Positions 13,256-56,725 of a stretch of 64,000 bases of DNA are shown piece by piece. The position numbers and the translations under genes were made by a program. How positions within the stretch are numbered: position 1 is the stretch's first letter; each line of letters opens with the position of its first letter. The notes beneath the pieces are model-generated. The model saw nothing but the letters and a program-made list of their open reading frames with translations. It did not search any database and was not told the origin of the DNA. Source of the stretch: Marchantia polymorpha subsp. ruderalis (taxonomy: Eukaryota > Streptophyta > Marchantiopsida > Marchantiales > Marchantiaceae); assembly GCA_037833965.1 (NCBI GenBank), contig AP031352.1:14612501-14676500 (forward strand), given 5' to 3'.

Positions 13256-16200
13256 ATGCGGATTCCCGGTTCGAATCCATCTCTCCTGTACATTGGGAGC
13301 GATGATGAAGACGACGATAATAATACCGAGGTTAATGAGAATGGAGCGCCGACCGGTCGAGGCCACCGTCATACTAACGCCGGTTCCAGGACTTCCTCCG
13401 TCGGCTCCTTCACCAATCCAACATGGCCTCAAAGCTATCGGTGCTTCCTCTTGCCATCGCTTGCACGATTTCTTCTTTTGCAGTTCGAAATGTTTCTGGA
13501 TCACTCTCTTCTCAATCGCCCGCAGTCTATTACATCTGAGCAGATCCTGTCGCCGCCCGCTCGAAGCGTCAAATGGGCCACGGAAGCTCCATAATGGCTG
13601 TTCGTACTCTCCGACAGCCGTAGCTGGTGACAGGAACCCAGTGTTGCGATTCGAGGCCACGTCGAGTCGGAAATTCGAGATTCTGACCCGACGGCTTCGA
13701 CCGCGCTCTCCTGCATCGAGCTCGCCTCGTCCTCGTCGCTTTCCATTTCCCTGCTCATGCATTTGTGACTGAATCGGCAGCTCACGGTGTCTGAGCGAAT
13801 GGAGCCTCGAGCCTTGAGTGGGATTCATACGGAATCACTCTCGCTGTAGTTCGAGAGTGGTCAGACGTCTGGATTCTGCAAATCCTCTGCGTCGCTGTCA
13901 TAATGCAGAGCAGTGTTCTCGACTGCGCTCCGACCGCTCGGTCACTCTTGTCCCAGGATCTTGTCCCAGAAACCATTCGACGAGCGTCGGAAGTGGTTCT
14001 CTCTGGCTGTATTCGTCCCTCGCACTGGCGACGCAGTGAGGCTTCAATCTGAATCCGGACAGGTCTTCCAGGACTCACGCAGTTTGCGAGCTTCGTGAAA
14101 TTGACCATCTCTGGTTCTGTCAAAGGGCAGAGATCACGGTCGGCTCCCGGTCTTCACGGTTCTGGACTGTCGATCCAACACCGAGGACTGAAGCTCGTCG
14201 CTGTTGCGCTTGTACCTGCTCTAGATTCGGAACTATGGCCTGTGCCGTCGAGGCAGAACACGTATAAACCACGTGCACGGCCGAAATTTACACGTTTCTG
14301 TAAACGCTTGGAAGTTGGAATGGCTTGAATGTGTGAAATGCTCGTTTCTCAGCTGGATCTGTCGCTGTCGATGATGGAGCTGATGAGATGTGGAAATCTT
14401 GACGACGTAGGCAACTAGTTCGGGAGTTCCTTGCTAGCTCTTACATGCACGAGGGATGGAGTTTCATGGATCATGTCGGTGGTGAGAATTTACAGTCTCA
14501 GGAGTGGAGCATGAGGACATTTGCAAAGGAAGAGACGTGGATGCTAAATGGATCGAATGTTGCTGTGTGTTCATCTGCTGCAGGCAATCTATGGACTATC
14601 AAATCGTGTCAGGATCTCCGACCTTTCAAATTTTTAGCCCCATTCCTCGCATCAGCAGTTCATTTTTATCCTCCTCGTTTAAGAAACAAGATAGCGCCTT
14701 TTTTTCGAGCTCGGAGAATCTGCGGATACCCTTCCTGCCCGGTAAGGGCGAAGATGCGGAACAGGGCCTCGGAGGCGCCAAGCCAATCTGCAAAGTGGAC
14801 TCGGACGCCAGCATCACCTACCTGCCCTCCAAATTCGCGGATGCTGAGAGGGAAGAGGAGGGCTCCAGCTTCACGCAGGCTATGCTCAATGGTAAGCACC
14901 CTTCCAATGGTCCTGGCGAAGTTCGTATTTTCTTCTCGCTCTTTGGAGAATGTGGCAGTTTGCCAATTTTCTGAAGAGCACCTGCACGATCAAAATGAAA
15001 TTTCATAGCGAATCAGACTAATGACTCGTCCTCTGTCGCTCTGTGTTCTTAGAAGGACCGTCCAGGTTTTTGATGCGCCTATAGCCCTCGTGAGGGCACC
15101 TCCTTCATGAATGCACCGCGTCCCTCCTCATTGCTGTTCCGTCTTCTGTCATCGGACGCCGAAATGTCCTTTCGAGCTCCACAGAGCGTGGAGGACTTGG
15201 ACTAAAATCTGCTCCTGCTTGCATGTAGTGCAGGTTTGAACGTGCTGGCTGGAGTTGGTGTTCTTTCTACACCGTATGCTCTCAAGGAAGGAGGCTTTTT
15301 AGGAATTATTCTTTTGTTTGCTCTTGCAGCTATTTGCTGCTACACAGGTATTTTACTCCGTCGTTGCCTCGACAGCCAACCAGGCATGCAGTCGTATCCG
15401 GACATCGGGCAGGCTGCCTTCGGCACTACCGGACGCTTTATTATCTCTGTGAGTATGCTCCACTCCACGCCGCCACGAATGCCACGAATGCCTCGTTGCC
15501 TGTGCACAACACTCTGGATTGTGCTTGAATTCCTCCATCATTGCCTTCGAGTTTATGATAATGTAAAATATTCCAGGACTGTGCGGGGTCACTGAACTAC
15601 TGTTTCATTGTCCGCTAGTTCTGCGCTAGTAGAACCTGTCTTGGCACATTCCCGCTGACCAAGGAACTTCGGAAGATCTCTGTCTGCATTTGCGGAAGAT
15701 GAAGCTGTTCATAGAGTAGTCAATCATAAATGTTTCTCGGGAAGTCATCCGTCCGAAAGATTATTCACATTTCTAGTTTTTGTTATCCTCCCAGCCTTGA
15801 AGAGTCCAATGCCCCCTAGTTTCACTGCAGCAGGGCAACCCTGCTGATGTCACTTTGGTGGAGACTGAATGTCCTTCCGACTTGGAAAAGAATAATGCCA
15901 ATGCCGCAAACTCGACTGAAATTGCAACGAAAAGTAGATTCTGCGGCCTGACGTCTGTTCCGTGCCTTCATGTCGATCCTAATACTACGTTTCGTTGGTT
16001 GCTTGGGTGCAGATAATCCTTTATATTGAGCTCTATGTAAGTGATGATTTCGAGCTTCTCCTGTTGTTGCAAGTTAACTCCTGATTCTGTACTGTTTGCT
16101 ACTACTGAATGTGAACCTTTAGTATGATGGAATAGTCAAGAGTCTGCACCGTAAACAGATTTTCAAGCTCTGGTTGGAAGTCTTTTATTCGGGTCGAATT

Positions 16201-18854
16201 GATATCTGCTGTTTCAGGCATGTTGCGTGGAGTTTATCATCTTAGAAGGAGACAATTTGTCAGCTTTGTTTCCTGGTGCTCGACTCGACATGGGAGGACT
16301 TCACCTGGATTCTCAGCATGTCTTCTGTATTGTATCGGCCCTAGTGATCATGCCCACTGTGTGGCTTCGAGATTTGAGCGTGCTCTCATACGTCTCAGGT
16401 TCCTATCTCTTACTTATTCCATCGAGCATTCTTCAAGCGCTAGACTTTCCTGGATATGCTTTTGAGTTGAGACTAGATCCACCTGACCATGACATGTGTA
16501 GGATCCAAGTGTCCCATTAATTCCATCAGGCTGCATAAATGCTGACATTCGATCGTTCATTCTGCGCAGCTGGAGGGGTGGTTGCGACCCTTGTAGTGGT
16601 GTTCTCGGTCTTCTGGGTAGGAGCTTTTGACGGTGTAGGCTTCCACCGAGGCACGGGACCTCTTCTCAATATTGCACAGCTTCCTGTCTCCATTGGTCTT
16701 TACGGGTTTTGTTATTCTGGCCATGCTGTTTTCCCCAACGTTTACACATCCATGAAAAGACCTCAAGATTTCAATCTCGTTCTTCAAGTCAGGTACGCGA
16801 CTAGTGGAGTTTTATTCACCTATTGTCACATCAGCTCATAGTATAAGGAGGGAGGCAGGAACCTGATACCGTATAGGTTACGAGAGAAAACAAATGAACA
16901 AGTTGTATTTACCTGATCATTTTCGACATTCGCGTTTCAGGCTTTTACCCTTGCGTAATGAGTAATCCTCTTTGGACCAATTTACTGACTCTGTATCTGG
17001 GGTGCAGTTTCTTCATAGTATCGTTAATTTACGGAGGAATGGCAGTTATGGGGATTTCAATGTTCGGACAAGACACCTTATCTTCAATTACTTTGAACCT
17101 GCCGAAAGAGTTCCTGGCTTCAAAGATTGCTGTGTGGACAACTGTAAGAAGCAGTACCTCTCAGTTCTGAACTTTGGGCTTCATCCCGGTCAATTTTGTG
17201 TTCCTCTGGAATCTGCAGTTGTACTGAAATTCCAAGTGACTATCAGAACTAATGTAAAGAAGGTGTGTGGCGTGTGGTTTTGTTTACAGGTCATCAATCC
17301 CATTACCAAATATCCACTCTTTTGATCAAATTTCTGTTCTGCACACTTTCCTTTACCTTATTTAATGTCGCCCAGTTGAATAGAAAGGACTTCAAAGTTA
17401 AATTACGTTCTCTTACGCTTTAGTAATATAGTCAATGAGTGTTTTAATCCATACGCGTAGCAGTTGTGAAATGGCTTTTCTCAGCTTTCAATACTTATCT
17501 CCTTAACTCTATGAGGTGGCACATTCGCGTTGACTATGACTCCAGTCGCACTGTGCTTGGAGGAACTTCTTCCTTATGAGAAAGCAATGAAGTATTCGAC
17601 GTTTCTCAGAACCGGACTTGTCATGTCAACTGTTGCCGTAGCAGTGCTCGTGCCGTATTTTGGTAGGTTCTTTCGCACTGACTACCGCACTGGGTGTATT
17701 CTGAAAGATTGATCTTCCATCATTGTTTCGAGTACTACTTGTTCAAGACCGGGAAATTTTTTGAAATTCTCAATAAGCTTTCGAAGTCATCCAGTTTCCC
17801 TGCATTGCATTGGCATGCTTGGCAGCAACCAGACGAGAGTCATGTTTTACACCAGTGCCTGCTATGATGGGTTGCCATCCTCAGACTCGGACACAGAATT
17901 TGGCCATTTTCCAGCTACAGTTTTATCAAGCAAGCTAGAATCCCTTCTATTTCAGTTGCTTAGAGTTTTGTCAAATCTAAAAACATCATAGCTTTTATAG
18001 ATATTTCTTCACCTTTCTTGGAAGCAACGAGTCCAGAATCACGTCACTCACCAAATGCTGCCCCAAGGTCTGTCAACCTCGATGTTGTTGCAAAGTACCT
18101 GAATACTTTCACACACATTTGCTACTAAACGAGCTAGACTTGTTTGCCGTCAAACGCTTTTTATCGAGAAGATTAGATGCTAACTTCAACTTTGCGACTT
18201 TGGGCAGGGCTCGTCATGGCATTCATCGGTGCTTTCCTGAGTATGACAGTGGTAAGTTTTTACTCTAAAAGGATTCAAGACGTCTAATTTTTGTGCCTCC
18301 ATAAAACAAGACTTTAGGAGAATGCTTCTGTTTACACTTCCTTTCGTATACTTTGAAGCGAAGTCAATGGTTGCAGTTGAACATTATATGCAGTGTCAAA
18401 CTTCTGACTCGACGAATTATGATCTGCAGTCCCTTATTTTACCATGTCTGTGTTACCTGAGTATTGTGGGCGACAAGACGACGATCATGCAGGTGAATGC
18501 TCTTGCACGTAGGGCTTATGATACATACAATGCTGCAGTAGTAACAGTGGTTACATTTAGGAGAAAGTATCAAATCATGGAAACCGCTCTACATGCTTTG
18601 TATAGGAAACCCCTCAGTAATCAGAGATCCTCCCGGTAATGGGGAATCTCAAGATTTTATTTAACTTGAAGGTGGATGTCTAACACTAACTTTGAAGCCA
18701 AATTTCAGCCGTCTGTGAGGGCAGTGTTTCTAATATTGCCTTGTGCTTGCAGCGTATCGTGTGTGTATTCATCATTGTGGTGGGCGTAGTATGTGTCATA
18801 GCTGGCACATACTCATCAGTTGCTGGAATTATACAGAGCGTTTTTGATACTTAG
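13256..18854 (+). CDS. AVT1: AVT1-type vacuolar amino acid transporter
   Basis: Twelve coding exons, all phases consistent, 546 aa: 13256-13440, 14584-14891, 15234-15448, 16013-16036, 16218-16398, 16570-16792, 17008-17143, 17290-17309, 17523-17662, 18208-18251, 18430-18492, 18753-18854. The start is the ATG of an acidic N-terminus (SDDEDDD, residues 15-21). A WPQSYRQSMD segment spans exons 1-2 (about 57-66), as in plant AVT1 proteins. The Aa_trans transporter domain runs from about residue 158 to the end. It contains [19 protein letters not shown], the [13 protein letters not shown] segment, [15 protein letters not shown] and [10 protein letters not shown]. Family members move neutral amino acids across the tonoplast with proton coupling; that role is by homology. 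About eleven membrane spans are expected. Length fits the family (about 550 aa). Eleven introns: ten are GT-AG, and the intron after exon 8 is AT-AC (listed separately). Exons 4 and 8 are micro-exons. No frameshift was found. Confidence 0.95.
16013..16036 (+). other. AVT1: 24-nt micro-exon of the AVT1-like gene
   Basis: The exon is bounded by GTGCAG upstream and GTAAGTG downstream and encodes IILYIELY in frame. The next exon continues with [14 protein letters not shown], which recreates the conserved family segment at that point. Skipping would remove eight residues of a membrane span without shifting frame. Confidence 0.9.
17290..17309 (+). other. AVT1: 20-nt micro-exon preceding the AT-AC intron
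   Basis: It starts after TTTACAG and encodes VINPITK, the lysine codon being split two bases to one with the next exon. Joined to 17523 onward it gives [21 protein letters not shown], matching the NPxTKYALTM block of AVT1 proteins. Skipping would shift the frame. Confidence 0.88.
17310..17522 (+). other. AVT1: U12-type AT-AC intron (213 bp)
   Basis: The intron begins ATATCCACTC and ends GGTGGCAC. The U12 5' splice-site consensus is ATATCCTT, so the first six bases match. A perfect U12 branch-point core TCCTTAAC lies at 17500-17507, placing the branch adenosine about 16 nt before the AC end, within the short range typical of U12 introns. No GT donor occurs before the in-frame stop just downstream (17,323-17,325). 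The nearest AG (17,513-17,514) would, if spliced from exon 7, lead to an early stop. Only the AT-AC pair restores the conserved protein. Confidence 0.88.
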
Positions 18855-39300: not shown

Positions 39301-41204
39301 GCCCTCATGCACACACAAATAATTACTACGATGATACTTTTACAGTCACAGTGTGCCGGATCACGTCTATTGCTCGGACATTTTCGTTGTTGATTATTGT
39401 TGGCATCGGCGAAACATTTTCATCACATTTTGTGTAAGTCAGCCGAGGCTCACTGCCGGTCGATATTCAGGGAAGCTTTCATCCTTTTAATGAGAATACA
39501 GTGAGAGGACGTTGTCTGCAGTTTAGTCGTTTTCGGGAATTGCCTCGTGTAAGTTTTGCATTTAACATTCCGATTCGTATATGGTTTATGAAGGTGAGTA
39601 ATGGATATTTATTTCCATGAGTTTGAAATCGATGGAAAGAAAAAGTATCAATATTTGTAATATTTTAGAAGTCCATACGAGTGCTTGATAAAGATTTTCG
39701 AATTTTAAAACAAATCTCATTTCTTCATTAACTAGATGAAACGAACATCGATTGCAACCACAACCAGAAAATGTAAGAGCATTAGGAAATTGGTAATCAC
39801 ATGAAGATGGTATAAAAGTTGAATGAGAAATCAAATCAAGACTTGTCTTGACTTTTTATTCCATATGTTTATTTCTTATACTAAATAGGTTTTTTTTCCA
39901 AAATGAATATATATTTATGAAGCAATAATCAAGCATCAATTGAAAATATTCAATGGTTATGTTGAGATAAGAGTTAGTTTCATATCACAAATTTCCCAAT
40001 AGAGTTCAAGAAGAAGTAATCTACAACTTCTTTTGTGAAGTAGAACAGACAGTAGAGTTCTTCTTGGATACAGCGACATTTGCATGTCATCGCACCAACC
40101 TAGAACTCCAAGGGTACATATCAACTCTATGATACCTTATATTTCAATCATGTATGTGTGGTTTGTAATATGTGTGGTTAGTATAATATTGACAAACATC
40201 GGTGCTAGGGATTGACCTCCTTATTGAATGATGTCACTAACAAAAGAAAAGTGCTTATACTTCTTATAAGACGATACATTAGTAACATAATGTTTTTTAA
40301 GTGCTGTTTGGCTACAAGATTAATTTCATTTGCTATTTTGTATTGTTCAGAAACATTAACATTGATGTTCTTATTGCATTTGAATAAAGATATTTGTACA
40401 CATGTCTGGTAGTGCAAGAAAGATTAAACGCTTGGACGTTAAGACAAAGTTAAGGGATCTCAACTTTCTAAGTCAACAAGCAGCACATCCAATACTTTCA
40501 AATATCTTGAGAAGGAGAGAAGTTATCATGCACGTGGCATTGGATTTGAATTGGGATGAATCCAAAAGCATTGTATATCACATTAGTTGCAAAGTTTTAT
40601 GTACATTCTGCATGAATATTATATGCGCGTTGAGATGAATGCGCTTACGATGAAAGTAAGTAGCTATGAGTTCAAAAAAAAAGCTTTGTTTCTTTGAAAT
40701 AAGATCTTGCATAAGTTTTACCAAATGTTTATAATATTTAAAACACAATTTTTTTCCAGACATGCGTTGCGTCGAATGTATGGCTTGAGAAAGATTTGAA
40801 GCGCGTATCAAAATCTAGCAAAAAAAAGAGCTGATGAGAACATAACAGACTTACTTTCATTCAGAAGAAAATACATTTGCATACAATTCACAAAATGATG
40901 ATTAATGTACCATTCAAATGTATTATTAACATTAATAAGTTGACTTTACAATATCACAAACATCATACACAATGAATTCAGATGATTGTGCTGTTTAGCA
41001 AAGCAAAGAACAAATTATAAATTTTAGATGAAAAATTTACCATCCATTGTATAGAAAATAGATTTTGTTCACGTGTTTTGAATATCAATAAGAATTTCAA
41101 AATTATCTTTGATTATCAAGTTAAAACTTGGCAAAATACATAAAATCTATGCATATCTTGCACAAGTACAACAAAATTGTAATCATTACTTCATATTATA
41201 TATA

Positions 41205-41245
41205 TTTCAAGACAATTGTTTATGAAATGAACAATTGTCTTGAAA
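41205..41245. repeat. Perfect inverted repeat, 16-bp arms
   Basis: Arms TTTCAAGACAATTGTT (41205-41220) and AACAATTGTCTTGAAA (41230-41245) flank a 9-nt loop. Confidence 0.95.
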
Positions 41246-43926
41246 AATCTGTGTGTCATTTCATGTTTGAGTGTCTAAAATCCAAGATACATTTGTATCA
41301 TCAAAATTGTTTTTTATATCAAAATTGATGCATCTTTTTTTTTCATCAATGTTATCAGCGAATGTGAGCATCTTGATCATAAATCATTCAGTCTTTCAAA
41401 ATATGTTTAAACAGTTCTCAACTCAAACATTTAATATCCAAGTATGAAATGTGGCAAGGGAATGAACATGCATTTGATTTTTAGTTTTTGATTAATGATC
41501 ATGCATATATGATCAACATGATTGATTGGATCAAATCAACATTAGATGATATTGAATAAAATAATACTTGATAGTGCTTTATCAAAGTCATTTTTTATTG
41601 TCGTTTTCAATAGTAATTTCAATAAAAACATCTGTATCAATATGCTTCCATTAAAATCAAGTTTATAATGATTTAGTGAAAATTTTGCAAAATATTTGAC
41701 TTAATGATAAGCTTTGAACGTCTTTGAGTCTAAATAACACAAATATTGAACAAGTTGTCAAAGATTCAATTTAAGTGTATGCTCTTGATAATATTAAAAT
41801 TTTTGAGGCTATAGTGAAACAACACAACATCTTGCAGAATGCCAGCAATTCAAATGACGATGATGTTGTTGAAATCTCACCTTTGATGATCGTCAAATAA
41901 AGTAATCAAACAACCATTGATTTAATCCATTTTACTTTATTTTTAGATCATTTTTATTGACATGAGTTCAAAATAACTTGTTTTTTCATTTCAATAGAGC
42001 TGATTGTACGTTGATATAGCACTAGGATTTAAAAAAAAATTCATTCAAAGATGGAATCATAAATTGTGAAGAGATACCAATTATGGTTCTTCTTTTAGTT
42101 ATATAGCTCTTACCAACAAGTACAAGTAGATAAAATTTTATCCTCACCCTCCATTCCACTTCTAGTGTATTGATGATTTGGCAAATATACATAAGAAGCA
42201 CACGGATTCTGACCAACTAACACACTCAATCTTTACCTAACAAGCACACTAATTGATGACATGTTGTTTCTAACCAACACACAAACTAGTACATGGATTG
42301 TTGACGTGGCACTATAGATTTTCCACTATTATCTACTCTACTCAATCTTAAGTAAACTTTACTTTAGTTCTAACTAACTAATGATGATTATAATTAATAT
42401 ATTAACAAATTTAACAAAGTTATATATCTCAAACAATTGACAATATAATATGTAGCAAAGTAATTATTACTTCTTAAAATAAATAACCATTGAGATAAAA
42501 GTTAAAAAAACATTTGTCAAATTTACCTTGTTCATAGCTCTTTTTTGTGATTATGATAGGGTTTGAAACTCCAAAATTATAATTGAAATTGTCAGTATTG
42601 AATAACATCATGATCTTATTGCAGTATTGAGATTTTTGGATAGATTTACTAGTTTTTGAAATTTGATATCACTAATGAAATATGTCATTCATACGAGGTG
42701 ACGATCTTGGAAAGTAATACTTTGTATATCAAACTTTCTACCTTACTTTACACAAAACATTTACAATACTTTTAATAAACAAGCACTAGATGATTAATTT
42801 ATTTGAAATCAATTACATCATGTGATGAGACATATGATACTTATTTTTGTTTGAAATATATCAAATTTGTGGAAAAATCAAAGTAAATTTTGATTTTTTG
42901 GGTTAATAAGTTTTAATTATTGTGACATTAATGAACATTTTCCCAACAAAAATTTTTGAAATTTGTATGATTTGCATACAATTAAAATTATTATGAAAGA
43001 TGTAGTCAACGGAGCATTGTGCAGCAATATACAATCATAATATCAATCTATTTTAATGAAAATTTGGAAGAGAAATCAACCTGATTTATTTGAATTTTTT
43101 TTTCATTAAAAATTTAATTATGTTTATTTTCTTGTTGAAGATTTCAATTCAAAAAACTAACTTATAATTGAAAGTATTACTAAATTTTAACTATTTTAAA
43201 AATTTGCAGATCATAAAATTAGAAGTTAAATTAATTATTTAATAATATAGATGTTCATTCCATGTGCAGTTACATTTAATTCGAATTACATTTAGATCTT
43301 TGTAATTTTAGGTTAGACTACTACTCAAATGTAATGTTAGCTAGTAGAAGTTTTTAATTTTATGTAAGAATACAGATGAAAATTTCAAATACATAATTTT
43401 TTTTTTATCCTAAATCTTGATAAAAGAGTCCAACAAAACAAACTATATGTGCAATTCCCTAAACCCTTAAAAATCATCTTTAAATTTATTTTTTATAATG
43501 TATTATGCAAATTAAAATAGACACATCATATATTAATGACTGGAATTTAGGATAGAAATTTAAAGTCATGCTGATTAAAAATAATATCTAAATGAAAATA
43601 TTCCCTTATAAATTATTTATACTTTTTTTCTTCATATTTTTATTAAAAATACATGCATTACAAGTAGACAATTTTAACTTTTTAGTGCATATATTGTTGA
43701 AAATTTGAACAAAATGTTTCAAATTTTCGAAGAAATTGTGCTTAAACCTTTATTCATGAATATTTTATTTACACAATGAAAACTGAAAATTAAATTTCAA
43801 ACACATGACAGTAAAAATTTTTGTACATTAAAATTTTAATATAAACAAAATTTATAATTAAAGTAGGAACAGTATAATTTAAATTGAATTTGTTTTTGGA
43901 ACTTCTTGAATTGACAATACTTCTTC

Positions 43927-43947
43927 TATATATATATATATATATAT
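43927..43947. repeat. TA microsatellite
   Basis: About ten uninterrupted TA units in AT-rich DNA. Confidence 0.9.
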
Positions 43948-45199
43948 GTTTCAATAAAAAATTATCATTCAAAAAAAATATTGAATCTAATGTTTCAGTA
44001 TATTTGATTCAATCAAAATATTTCATCATCTTATTCTGATTTAATCATATGTTTATAATTTATATTCTGATCTGATTATAATAGGTTCACCTTGTCAATT
44101 ACGTAATATTTCATTAAGACACAATGTGGTTTGAAGATTTTCCAATTCTTCATTATACAAAAAGCAAATTATGTTTAGTTTGAGATATAGTAAGTATTTT
44201 TTTTCCTGATGAAAATGCCAAAATATTTTCAAATCCATTTTAGTAGTTGATCTTAGAAATATTTTAGAGTTTGTATATGGACAATCCTATGATATACTTC
44301 TCTCTGTAAAGATTCATATTAGCAAGAAGATATTCTGATGAGTGGGATGGATTTTTGTTTTAAACGGATTTCCTCAAAATGAGCACGGGCTCTAGAGAGA
44401 AGGATGTATAAGATTTCGTACCTCGTTTCATGGTACGCAATAAAAAAGAAATTGCATCAATCTAATAAAAATTAGAGCATAAATGACGTTTTTCCAATCT
44501 TGATTGCATTATTCTTTTACAAATATAAGATTTATCTTAATCTTTGTGATAGTAGGGGGTTTAGAAAACTTACATATCCCTTAATGGCTGACCCAGAACA
44601 GTGCTAAACGTGATAAGAGGATAACATTGTAGGGGACTTTTTCACCTGGCATATTAACCTTTTCGCAGAATCGTTGTTGAATCGTCCAAGTATTGAGATT
44701 TGAGAAGAAAAATTTAAGACTGGATTTTCGCGTTAAGAAAACCTTGTGGATCCACAGAACATGTACGTGCCAAACCTGTTGAGTTTCATGGGAAGGATTC
44801 CGTTCCGGTTGTTTTGTTGTATGACTCTGATTAGAGAACCCCTAATATAATCAAATTTATTCATTTGCAAATAAATCACTGCACGAAACACCTACTCAGT
44901 TCTCAATTTTCTGCTGTCATTGTGCCCATTAACTGTTCAAGAATTCAAATTTGCTACATCTTCCAAATATCAATATTTCTCGGACGCTGAAATGCGTGCT
45001 TCATTATGCAACAAGTACCGCCTTTACTACGTATGCTAGGTAACAAAAACAAATACTTTCAAGTTTAAGATTGTCCTGGATGCATGCAATTCTGTATTTC
45101 TAGGATCTTAACTGCAGCAGCTATCAGATTGTTTTGGCAGTGATTCACGACGAGATACGATATATAAACGTATGAAATTTGTCATAAGTACTAAGTACA

Positions 45200-54900: not shown

Positions 54901-55801
54901 GCAGGTTGCTATACTGGAAACGGACTAGTTTATTGTCATAACTCAGCTCAGCAGTGCTATTTTCACCTGGTAGGCGTGCGACGTGATGTTGCTAGAAGAG
55001 CTCTCTGACAGCGAGTGATCTGAAGAAAATGTTCGTCTGATTCATTGATTTCGGAGATTGAACACACATCTTCTTGCAGTCGATCTCCCACAGCACTCGT
55101 TTCGATCGAAAAGAGTGCGTGGACCTCTGAGCAGTTCCTTATATTCGGTGAAGTCCGCGCTCGGTTGGTCAGTCGGCGAATGTCGATAGAGCCCGTCTAT
55201 GAGTATTGTTTCAATTCGAAGAAGAAGTTCGCGTCTGCTGGTCGTGATCCTGCATTCGATCACACATTGATCAGCCGAGTAGTAAGCGACTCTTATAGCA
55301 GCCGCGTATGCGCTGAAATTTGGTCTGTCTGAAGGTTGTTTACTTATCTGCACAAACTGTATCACGTCGAATTCCGTAGTTGTGAGCTGTGCCAGTCCTA
55401 GCAGAGCATTCCTCTGTCGTTGTTCTCGAGTCAGTCAGTAGTACTGCTTGCTGTTCTCGTGTAGAGTAGAACTTGTGCCTTCCGCGTCCTTGAAGTAGGA
55501 ACTCTTGAGTCGAACACGCTGAAGTATTCAGTTTAGACGTCAGACAGTATGTTTTCTTTCCTACCTGCTCCGTCGGTAGTCTGATTCCCATACGTCAAGG
55601 AAGTCAACACACGCGAAGAGATCCAGTAATCTGAGTAGGCCTTACTGAAGAGGGATTCTATGTTGTAAACCAAAGACTGTTTCTCTCGCTTCTCGTATCA
55701 ACGGACTGGACAAATCCTGGACGTCGGGCGACACTACTGTTCTGAAGTTCTTATACTTGGTCCGCGTGGTATTGTGTGCAGCTACGAGGTGGATTGAGGA
55801 G

Positions 55802-56725
55802 ATGTCTTGTGGCTTTCCTAGGGATCTGGGTCGCCTCAAGCTGCCGTACGGGTTCCGAGACCCGCATCAGACCTGCAATGATCCGTCCTGCAATCGCATT
55901 AGAAGGTGGGGAGGACATAAGTGGATCCCCGGCTGCACCGTACAAGCACTTTGCGAAAACGTGAAACAGTGCAACGAGCCATTTCGCATAGTGAACTCAG
56001 AAAACTACCGCAAGTCGGAGCTCGACAAATACAGTCATCAGTTTGTGGTCCTGAAATTCGAGCCTGGCTACCAACCAGCGATCCACGAGCTACAGCAATG
56101 GTTCATGAGTTTGTACTTCAACTTCGACATCAAGGCGGAACTGGAAGCTGTCCTGGAGAATGACTTCCTCTTGGTGAACTGTTTCTCTTGTGAAGAACAG
56201 GATAGAATGCTGTCTCTGAGTCCAATTTTCCTCATGGACCGCTATGCAGCTGTGAGCCCTTACATCCCGGATTTCGACCCAGACAAACCCCATGAGCAGC
56301 CGATCAAGGAGTTAATGTGGGTCTCCCTGCAGCACATGTCCAAAGTCGCGCAGATAATATTACCGAAGATTCTGGCACCCATTGGCGAAGTTCTTCAGCA
56401 GGAGGAGACGACTGTAGACGGCGTGTTTACTATCAGAGTCCTGTTGGAAACTTGCTTATTCCGAACTGGGGCTGTTCCCTACGTTAGAATACCATTGGGC
56501 AGAGGGTTCACCGAGGTGGTGCACATCGAGTACGAGGATCTGACCCTCAGATGTCAAAGATGCGGCGAGTTCTCCCACCCGGAGTCTGAGTGCGAAAATC
56601 TGGTCAAGTGCTACAGGTGCGAGAAGTTCACTCATCGGGCCGCAGATTGTGACCACGGACCTATCATTCATCCTCCAACTTCGTTTCCTGTCCAGACCAT
56701 GGATGTTGATCGGATGCTGGAGTGA
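55802..56725 (+). CDS. DUF4283-like protein with two CCHC zinc knuckles (Gag/LINE ORF1-type)
   Basis: Uninterrupted single exon, 307 aa from the first ATG; the frame stays open about 45 nt further upstream. Two CX2CX4HX4C zinc knuckles lie at C251-C264 (CQRCGEFSHPESEC) and C270-C283 (CYRCEKFTHRAADC). The upstream region (about 65-240) has the layout of plant DUF4283 proteins: FVVLKFEPGYQP, a linker with FLLVNCFSCEEQDRML, WVSLQHMSKV, and IRVLLETCLFRTGAVPYVRIPLG leading into the knuckles. Such proteins are usually nucleic-acid-binding ORF1/Gag-like products of plant non-LTR elements, or free-standing relatives. No endonuclease or reverse transcriptase follows in the next 7 kb, and the ORF has no stops. 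It may be a domesticated copy, a lone unit, or a recent partial insertion. Function unknown. Confidence 0.78.
   Translation: MSCGFPRDLGRLKLPYGFRDPHQTCNDPSCNRIRRWGGHKWIPGCTVQALCENVKQCNEPFRIVNSENYRKSELDKYSHQFVVLKFEPGYQPAIHELQQWFMSLYFNFDIKAELEAVLENDFLLVNCFSCEEQDRMLSLSPIFLMDRYAAVSPYIPDFDPDKPHEQPIKELMWVSLQHMSKVAQIILPKILAPIGEVLQQEETTVDGVFTIRVLLETCLFRTGAVPYVRIPLGRGFTEVVHIEYEDLTLRCQRCGEFSHPESECENLVKCYRCEKFTHRAADCDHGPIIHPPTSFPVQTMDVDRMLE

Follow-up and report, generated by a model that had tools for sequence, protein, structure and literature searches.

The locus discussed here raises two linked questions: whether the short interval behind a 20-nt exon of a transporter gene in Marchantia polymorpha subsp. 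ruderalis is an AT-AC intron of the minor (U12-type) spliceosome, and whether its unusual 5' splice site marks poor splicing. The gene lies in the window, a 64,000-nucleotide stretch of contig AP031352.1. Its 12 exons joined into one protein with an Aa_trans domain (PF01490 in Pfam, E 1.1e-66, residues 155-535), so that the domain of amino acid transporters is present, and its nearest relative of solved structure was proton-coupled amino acid transporter 1 (5.3e-12). The AVT1 subgroup name is our presumption. Ten of the 11 introns are GT-AG and intron 8 is the sole AT-AC one, so that the microexon (exon 8) sits between a GT-AG intron 7 and an AT-AC intron 8 (Table 1). A second microexon of 24 nt (IILYIELY) was seen in the same gene at 16013-16036 of the window. 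Among the matches listed in our literature search, none pointed to a U12 intron in the AVT1-like transporter family, and the accessible part of a microexon survey (PMC8831610) mentions neither U12 introns nor transporters. Elsewhere in the window, positions 40001-44000 have 26% G+C, and a 358-aa open frame at 55649-56722, with a DUF4283 match below the Pfam cut-off, is perhaps from a mobile element.

Table 1 Coordinates of the transporter gene features and the U6atac gene, and 5' splice sites of the other U12-type introns. Positions are those of the window unless a genome position is given.
Feature	Position	Strand	Remarks
AVT1-like amino acid transporter gene, 12-exon model	13256..18854	+	coding span, 546 aa, stop included
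Exon 7	17008..17143	+	ends ACAACT, followed by gtaagaag
Intron 7, GT-AG, 146 nt	17144..17289	+	
Exon 8, 20-nt microexon	17290..17309	+	VINPIT and two bases of a K codon
Intron 8, U12-type AT-AC, 213 nt	17310..17522	+	predicted from splice signals and frame
5' splice site ATATCCACTC	17310..17319	+	agrees with the U12 consensus at +1 to +6 but not at +7/+8
Branch-point core TCCTTAAC	17500..17507	+	15 nt follow the core
Branch-to-3' splice site tract TCTATGAGGTGGCAC	17508..17522	+	no pyrimidine tract; ends AC
Exon 9	17523..17662	+	completes the joined K codon
U6atac L035	G000:C5:12818140-12818264	minus	94.6 bits over the full RF00619 model
CBP20 5' splice site ATATCCATCT			AT-AC
GPN2/QQT1 5' splice site ATATCCTAAA	locus L056		AT-AC
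PHB-like 5' splice site GTATCCTCAT			GT-AG
RabGGTB 5' splice site GTATCCTCAA			GT-AG
NHX5/6-like 5' splice site GTATCCTTGT			GT-AG
TMEM41B-like 5' splice site GTATCCTTCT			GT-AG

An earlier note, made from the sequence of the window, had described an intron at 17310-17522 that starts with ATATCC, contains an exact branch core about 16 nt from its end and stops in AC. Coordinates and signals proved exact, with the branch A 16 nt from the 3' end. Intron 8 is laid out as ATATCCACTC...TCCTTAAC(17500-17507)...GGTGGCAC. The ATATCC at 17310 agrees with the RTATCC that U12-type introns carry at +1 to +6 (consensus ATATCCTT as printed in PMC2426677), the branch-site motif stands at the expected spacing, and the AC end is reached without a pyrimidine tract. 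TT at +7/+8, a preference and not a requirement for membership of the class, is absent: the sequence confirmed AC at these positions, as the note had pointed out. One rice intron classed as U12 has AT there in the accessible part of Table 1 of PMC7367187. The combination ATATCC..TCCTTAAC..AC within 1.2 kb occurred a single time in the 64-kb window, counting both strands, against a chance expectation with mean 0.05 and maximum 1 in 60 one-strand first-order Markov simulations. Genome-wide, TCCTTAAC-N10-AC was not in excess (419 matches vs 1091 for the reversed control). U2-type AT-AC introns do exist, which could speak for removal by the major (U2) spliceosome, but the sodium-channel examples carry G at +5 (PMC2831892, accessible part), whereas in intron 8 both +5 and +6 are C, TCCTTAAC is complete and a pyrimidine tract is lacking, so that we regard U2-type removal as extremely unlikely.

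The reading frame led to the same boundaries. With exon 8 starting at 17290, junctions of seven dinucleotide classes were enumerated for a first intron base at 17291-17420 and a first exon base at 17440-17559. The frame stayed open into exon 9 in three of them, of which one was AT-AC (17310-17522) and two were AT-AG, and VINPITKFALTMTP was obtained from the AT-AC junction only; the two AT-AG alternatives, neither of which gives this block, were rejected. No in-frame GT-AG or GC-AG pair existed among the enumerated junctions. The claim that only AT-AC boundaries restore the conserved block and that GT-AG breaks the frame thus held within the enumeration. AT-AC 17310-17522 and TA-CA 17311-17523 are indistinguishable by sequence and give the same mRNA, in which the exon 8 end ..ATTACCAA would be joined to ATTCGCG. 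In the same genome, no intron was present at this position in the AVT1-like paralogues L013, L017 and L022 or in the more distant L018 and L020, and paralogues read uninterrupted across the site (VNPFAKFALTITP and VTPLSKFSLGIAP). Since the gene models come from DNA alone, an apparent intron might arise from an undetected GT-AG structure or from a mistake in the assembly; the lack of any in-frame GT-AG or GC-AG pair in the enumeration and the straight reading of the paralogues make this very improbable.

The genome (241,466,482 bases, 9 contigs) was searched for minor-spliceosome genes, with 14 genomes as controls. Results showed one U11 gene (60 bits), one U12 gene (101.8 bits) and at least 13 U6atac matches (best 94.6 bits), none of which had a counterpart in any of the 14 controls; the U6atac number is a lower bound because 46 of 10,678 first-look candidates were scored. 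Two zf-U11-48K matches (L033, L034) were found, and since the family also matched one of the 14 controls, an archaeon, it is not specific. Presumably one of the two may be the U11-48K gene and the other a tRNA-modifying protein. U4atac gave no Rfam match in the genome; as the control was likewise silent, this does not amount to evidence of absence. A thioredoxin-like DIM1-like gene was closer to human TXNL4B (2.6e-54) than to Dim1 (4.3e-24); DROL1, the Arabidopsis counterpart of this TXNL4B-like gene, has been reported as necessary for AT-AC introns (PMC11039992, accessible part). The U12 snRNA retains GUAAGGA, which, within a piece of that snRNA, pairs with the branch core TCCTTAAC at -10.5 kcal/mol (RNAduplex), and U11 retains AAAAGGG. 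As to their promoters, the upstream element AACCATAA is common to the U6atac and U11 genes and U12 has ACCCATAA (L035, L048, L049); the U11 and U12 elements stand at -70 and -67, and a TATA-like box lies near -30 in each of the three.

Splice signals, frame, protein family and the presence of minor-spliceosome genes (U11, U12, U6atac, zf-U11-48K, TXNL4B-like) together uphold the identification of a U12-type AT-AC intron, a rare kind, in an AVT1-like transporter, and by class, as judged from its sequence, 17310-17522 is an ordinary member. We infer that it is in fact spliced, and by the minor spliceosome. Recognition of ATATCC and TCCTTAAC would fall to U11 and U12 together with the protein U11-48K, the AT-AC termini would be allowed by a protein of TXNL4B/DROL1 type, and the minor spliceosome would join the 20-nt microexon to exon 9.

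The U6atac gene departs from expectation. Its box at positions 11-16 reads AGCCGA in L035 and AAAGGA in the Rfam consensus (positions 9-23: UGAGCCGAGAGAAGG in L035, the best copy, vs UGAAAGGAGAGAAGG). Capitals in an Rfam consensus denote strong conservation, and the U6atac box AAAGGA stands in capitals there. The box of L035 does not fit the canonical helix with the 5' splice site, in which AAAGGA complements UCCUUU at +4 to +9. Among the 13 listed copies, L035 alone has AACCATAA at -65, and it alone combines the upstream element with a TATA box at -31 and a T-run. C13C14 occurs in all 13 listed copies; AGCCGAGAG is exact in 12 of them, and the diverged L047 still has C13C14. The canonical box, searched as AAAGGAGAGANGGTTAGC and GGAGAGAAGGTTAG, had no exact match genome-wide. 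The other 12 copies (L036-L047) are dispersed and lack the upstream element, and several diverge at differing places in the 3' part; they therefore look like dead copies, resembling chimeric retro-copies. U6atac folding gave no signal beyond shuffles (z -0.24). Since AGCCGA replaces AAAGGA in the box whose usual partners are about +4 to +9, bases beyond +6 would probably be read differently or hardly at all.

Further U12-type introns were sought through relatives of genes with known U12 introns, using the motif [AG]TATC[CT]; because of this motif, +5/+6 are biased and positions from +7 onward are unbiased. Published plant genes with U12 introns include CBP20, QQT1, NHX5/6 and RGTB2 (accessible parts of PMC5932401 and PMC4892727), and the CBP20 data include the liverwort Pellia (PMC5932401); the main text of a pan-eukaryotic survey (PMC10639083) is without Marchantia, liverwort or bryophyte. 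Junction translation supported six further introns, in CBP20, GPN2/QQT1, PHB-like, RabGGTB, NHX5/6-like and TMEM41B-like genes. The least certain of the seven are NHX, where 33 nt separate the branch from the 3' end, and TMEM41B, where this distance is 21 nt and the branch site reads GTTTTGAC. TT was present at +7/+8 in two of the seven introns, and the five others include all three AT-AC ones.

Outside the seven, PHB-like L052, TXNL4B-like L055, E2F L064, SUF4 L066, TRAPPC2 L067, TMEM41B-like L070, NHX-like L071 and L072, EXOSC2 L073 and NAA60 L068 were scanned for U12 signals; some of their junctions were read. Some further matches, a third TMEM41B-like gene among them, lay outside this set. 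The junctions read in E2F, NAA60 and EXOSC2 looked U2-type, and GSS (L061), one GPN2-like (L060) and one NHX (L054) gave single-exon matches. GTATCTTCAACT of NHX was rejected as a U12 donor, for it lies inside an intron starting GTAAGT. A genome-wide GT-type U12 pattern gave 20 matches vs 23 for the control; four of the 20 were read and none was convincingly coding. In the NHX5/6-like L065 (reverse, about 586-1179), the intron following SATDPVTVLALF opens with GTAAGCC, a donor of U2 type, and contains TCTTTGAC near its end; it may possibly be a U12 intron converted to U2. Glutathione synthetase (G000:C2:29286645-29287943) matches most of the human query in a single unbroken exon; as Arabidopsis GSH2 has a U12 intron (PMC4892727, accessible part), this suggests a loss of introns.

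The earlier note went on to read AC at +7/+8 as a sign of reduced or regulated splicing. An individually weakened site, leading to slow or regulated splicing of the transporter, would agree with the AC itself and with pairing weaker than that of the consensus in two calculations, both for canonical U6atac (-4.2 vs -7.1; -3.4 vs -6.8) and for U11 (-6.2 vs -6.8; -3.6 vs -6.6). In its favour, too, skipping of exon 8 shifts the frame, so that exon 9 from its first base reaches a stop (frame 17448-17579), and retention of intron 8 adds YPLF and a stop after VINPITK, each truncating the protein. However, five of the seven U12-type introns supported in the genome, the three AT-AC ones included, are without TT, and duplex energies with the genome's own U6atac flip with fragment length (AVT1 vs consensus -4.1 vs -1.6, and -1.8 vs -4.1 at other lengths). 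Because of this wider pattern of non-TT sites and the altered U6atac, AC at +7/+8 is poor evidence for weak splicing; that part of the note was left unsupported, and a weakness peculiar to this site appears unlikely.

The low TT frequency was compared with a published baseline. TT occurs in 11 of 12 U12 rows in the accessible part of Table 1 of PMC7367187; these rows are not independent and fall, by our own grouping, into six distinct loci, five with TT. Two of seven differed from the 12 non-independent rows (Fisher 0.0095) and not significantly from the six loci (Fisher 0.10), and the binomial P for at most two of seven was 0.0002, 0.005 or 0.03 if the TT rate is taken as 0.9, 0.8 or 0.7. The trend, in seven introns of one genome, is suggestive. 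Together with the altered U6atac box, it makes the +7/+8 departure look system-wide and not peculiar to intron 8. It could instead be that the departures at +7 to +9 arose by chance in seven introns and that the U6atac change is unrelated. The small sample and the Fisher value of 0.10 favour chance, as does the pairing: in the normal register, out of the seven positions from +4 to +10, each of the seven real sites matches the altered U6atac at 2 to 5 and the consensus matches it at 5, which leaves the real sites no better matched. The Fisher value of 0.0095 and the binomial values count against chance, which we hold to be possible but somewhat doubtful.

Our preferred reading of the feature is that a U12-type AT-AC intron of an AVT1-like transporter is spliced by the minor spliceosome and carries a +7/+8 departure that it shares with others, and we consider this very probable. 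How the departure arose is less firm. Unshifted pairing of U6atac fails at +6 and +7 in all seven sites. Canonical U6atac would pair with the consensus site at 7 of 7 positions. It is quite conceivable, if short of probable, that the U6atac-5' splice site helix has evolved here, with three pairing positions changed, the canonical RNA gone and the sites having lost or re-tuned +7 to +9. We infer such a causal link with caution, for altered U6atac alone fails to explain the loss of TT because U11 AAAAGGG still favours TT. In a slightly favoured version, drift in the U6atac box left only weak pairing past +5 and relaxed the selection on +7 to +9, recognition being carried by U11, U11-48K and the branch site. 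In the other, the helix was rebuilt, for example with C13C14 bulged and UUGAG pairing with +6 to +10. Such a two-base-bulge helix, UUGAG(CC)GA vs UCCUCAA at +4 to +10, fits RabGGTB at 7 of 7 positions, PHB-like, NHX5/6-like and GPN2 at 6, TMEM41B-like at 5, and AVT1 and CBP20 at 4; re-pairing is only weakly supported because the consensus site also fits at 5.

Alone, intron 8 would be one more U12 AT-AC intron, and the genome context makes it useful. Mammalian tests show that pairing between U6atac and the 5' splice site is important (PMC4980772, accessible part), and a genome that naturally combines a changed box with degenerate positions +7 to +9 would offer a test case for the shares of U6atac vs U11, U11-48K and the branch site in recognition. 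In genomes of this kind, minor introns may escape classifiers that were trained on TATCCTT.

Compared with known systems, the transporter shares the domain match of the Aa_trans family (PF01490), and its AVT1 subgroup and any vacuolar transport are presumptive. L035 keeps the GAGAGAAGGUUAGCA core and T-run end of Rfam U6atac (RF00619) and has the upstream element and TATA box, but differs by A12G, A13C and G14C in the box, by A8U and by changes at 6-7. Like plant U12-type AT-AC introns such as CBP20 intron 4 (PMC5932401, accessible part), intron 8 has ATATCC, TCCTTAAC shortly before its end and an AC end without a pyrimidine tract; unlike that type, it has AC and not TT at +7/+8 and an AVT1-like transporter as host. 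In mammalian cells, according to the accessible part of PMC4980772, splice-site positions 5/6 have U6atac 14/15 and U11 6/7 as pairing partners, and matching changes in these two snRNAs rescued a mutant splice site. The engineered U6atac GG14/15CC suppressor and its CC5/6GG site (PMC4980772) have changes of the same box in common with the Marchantia RNA, whereas here position 14 of that pair is altered together with 12 and 13, and the splice sites keep C5C6.
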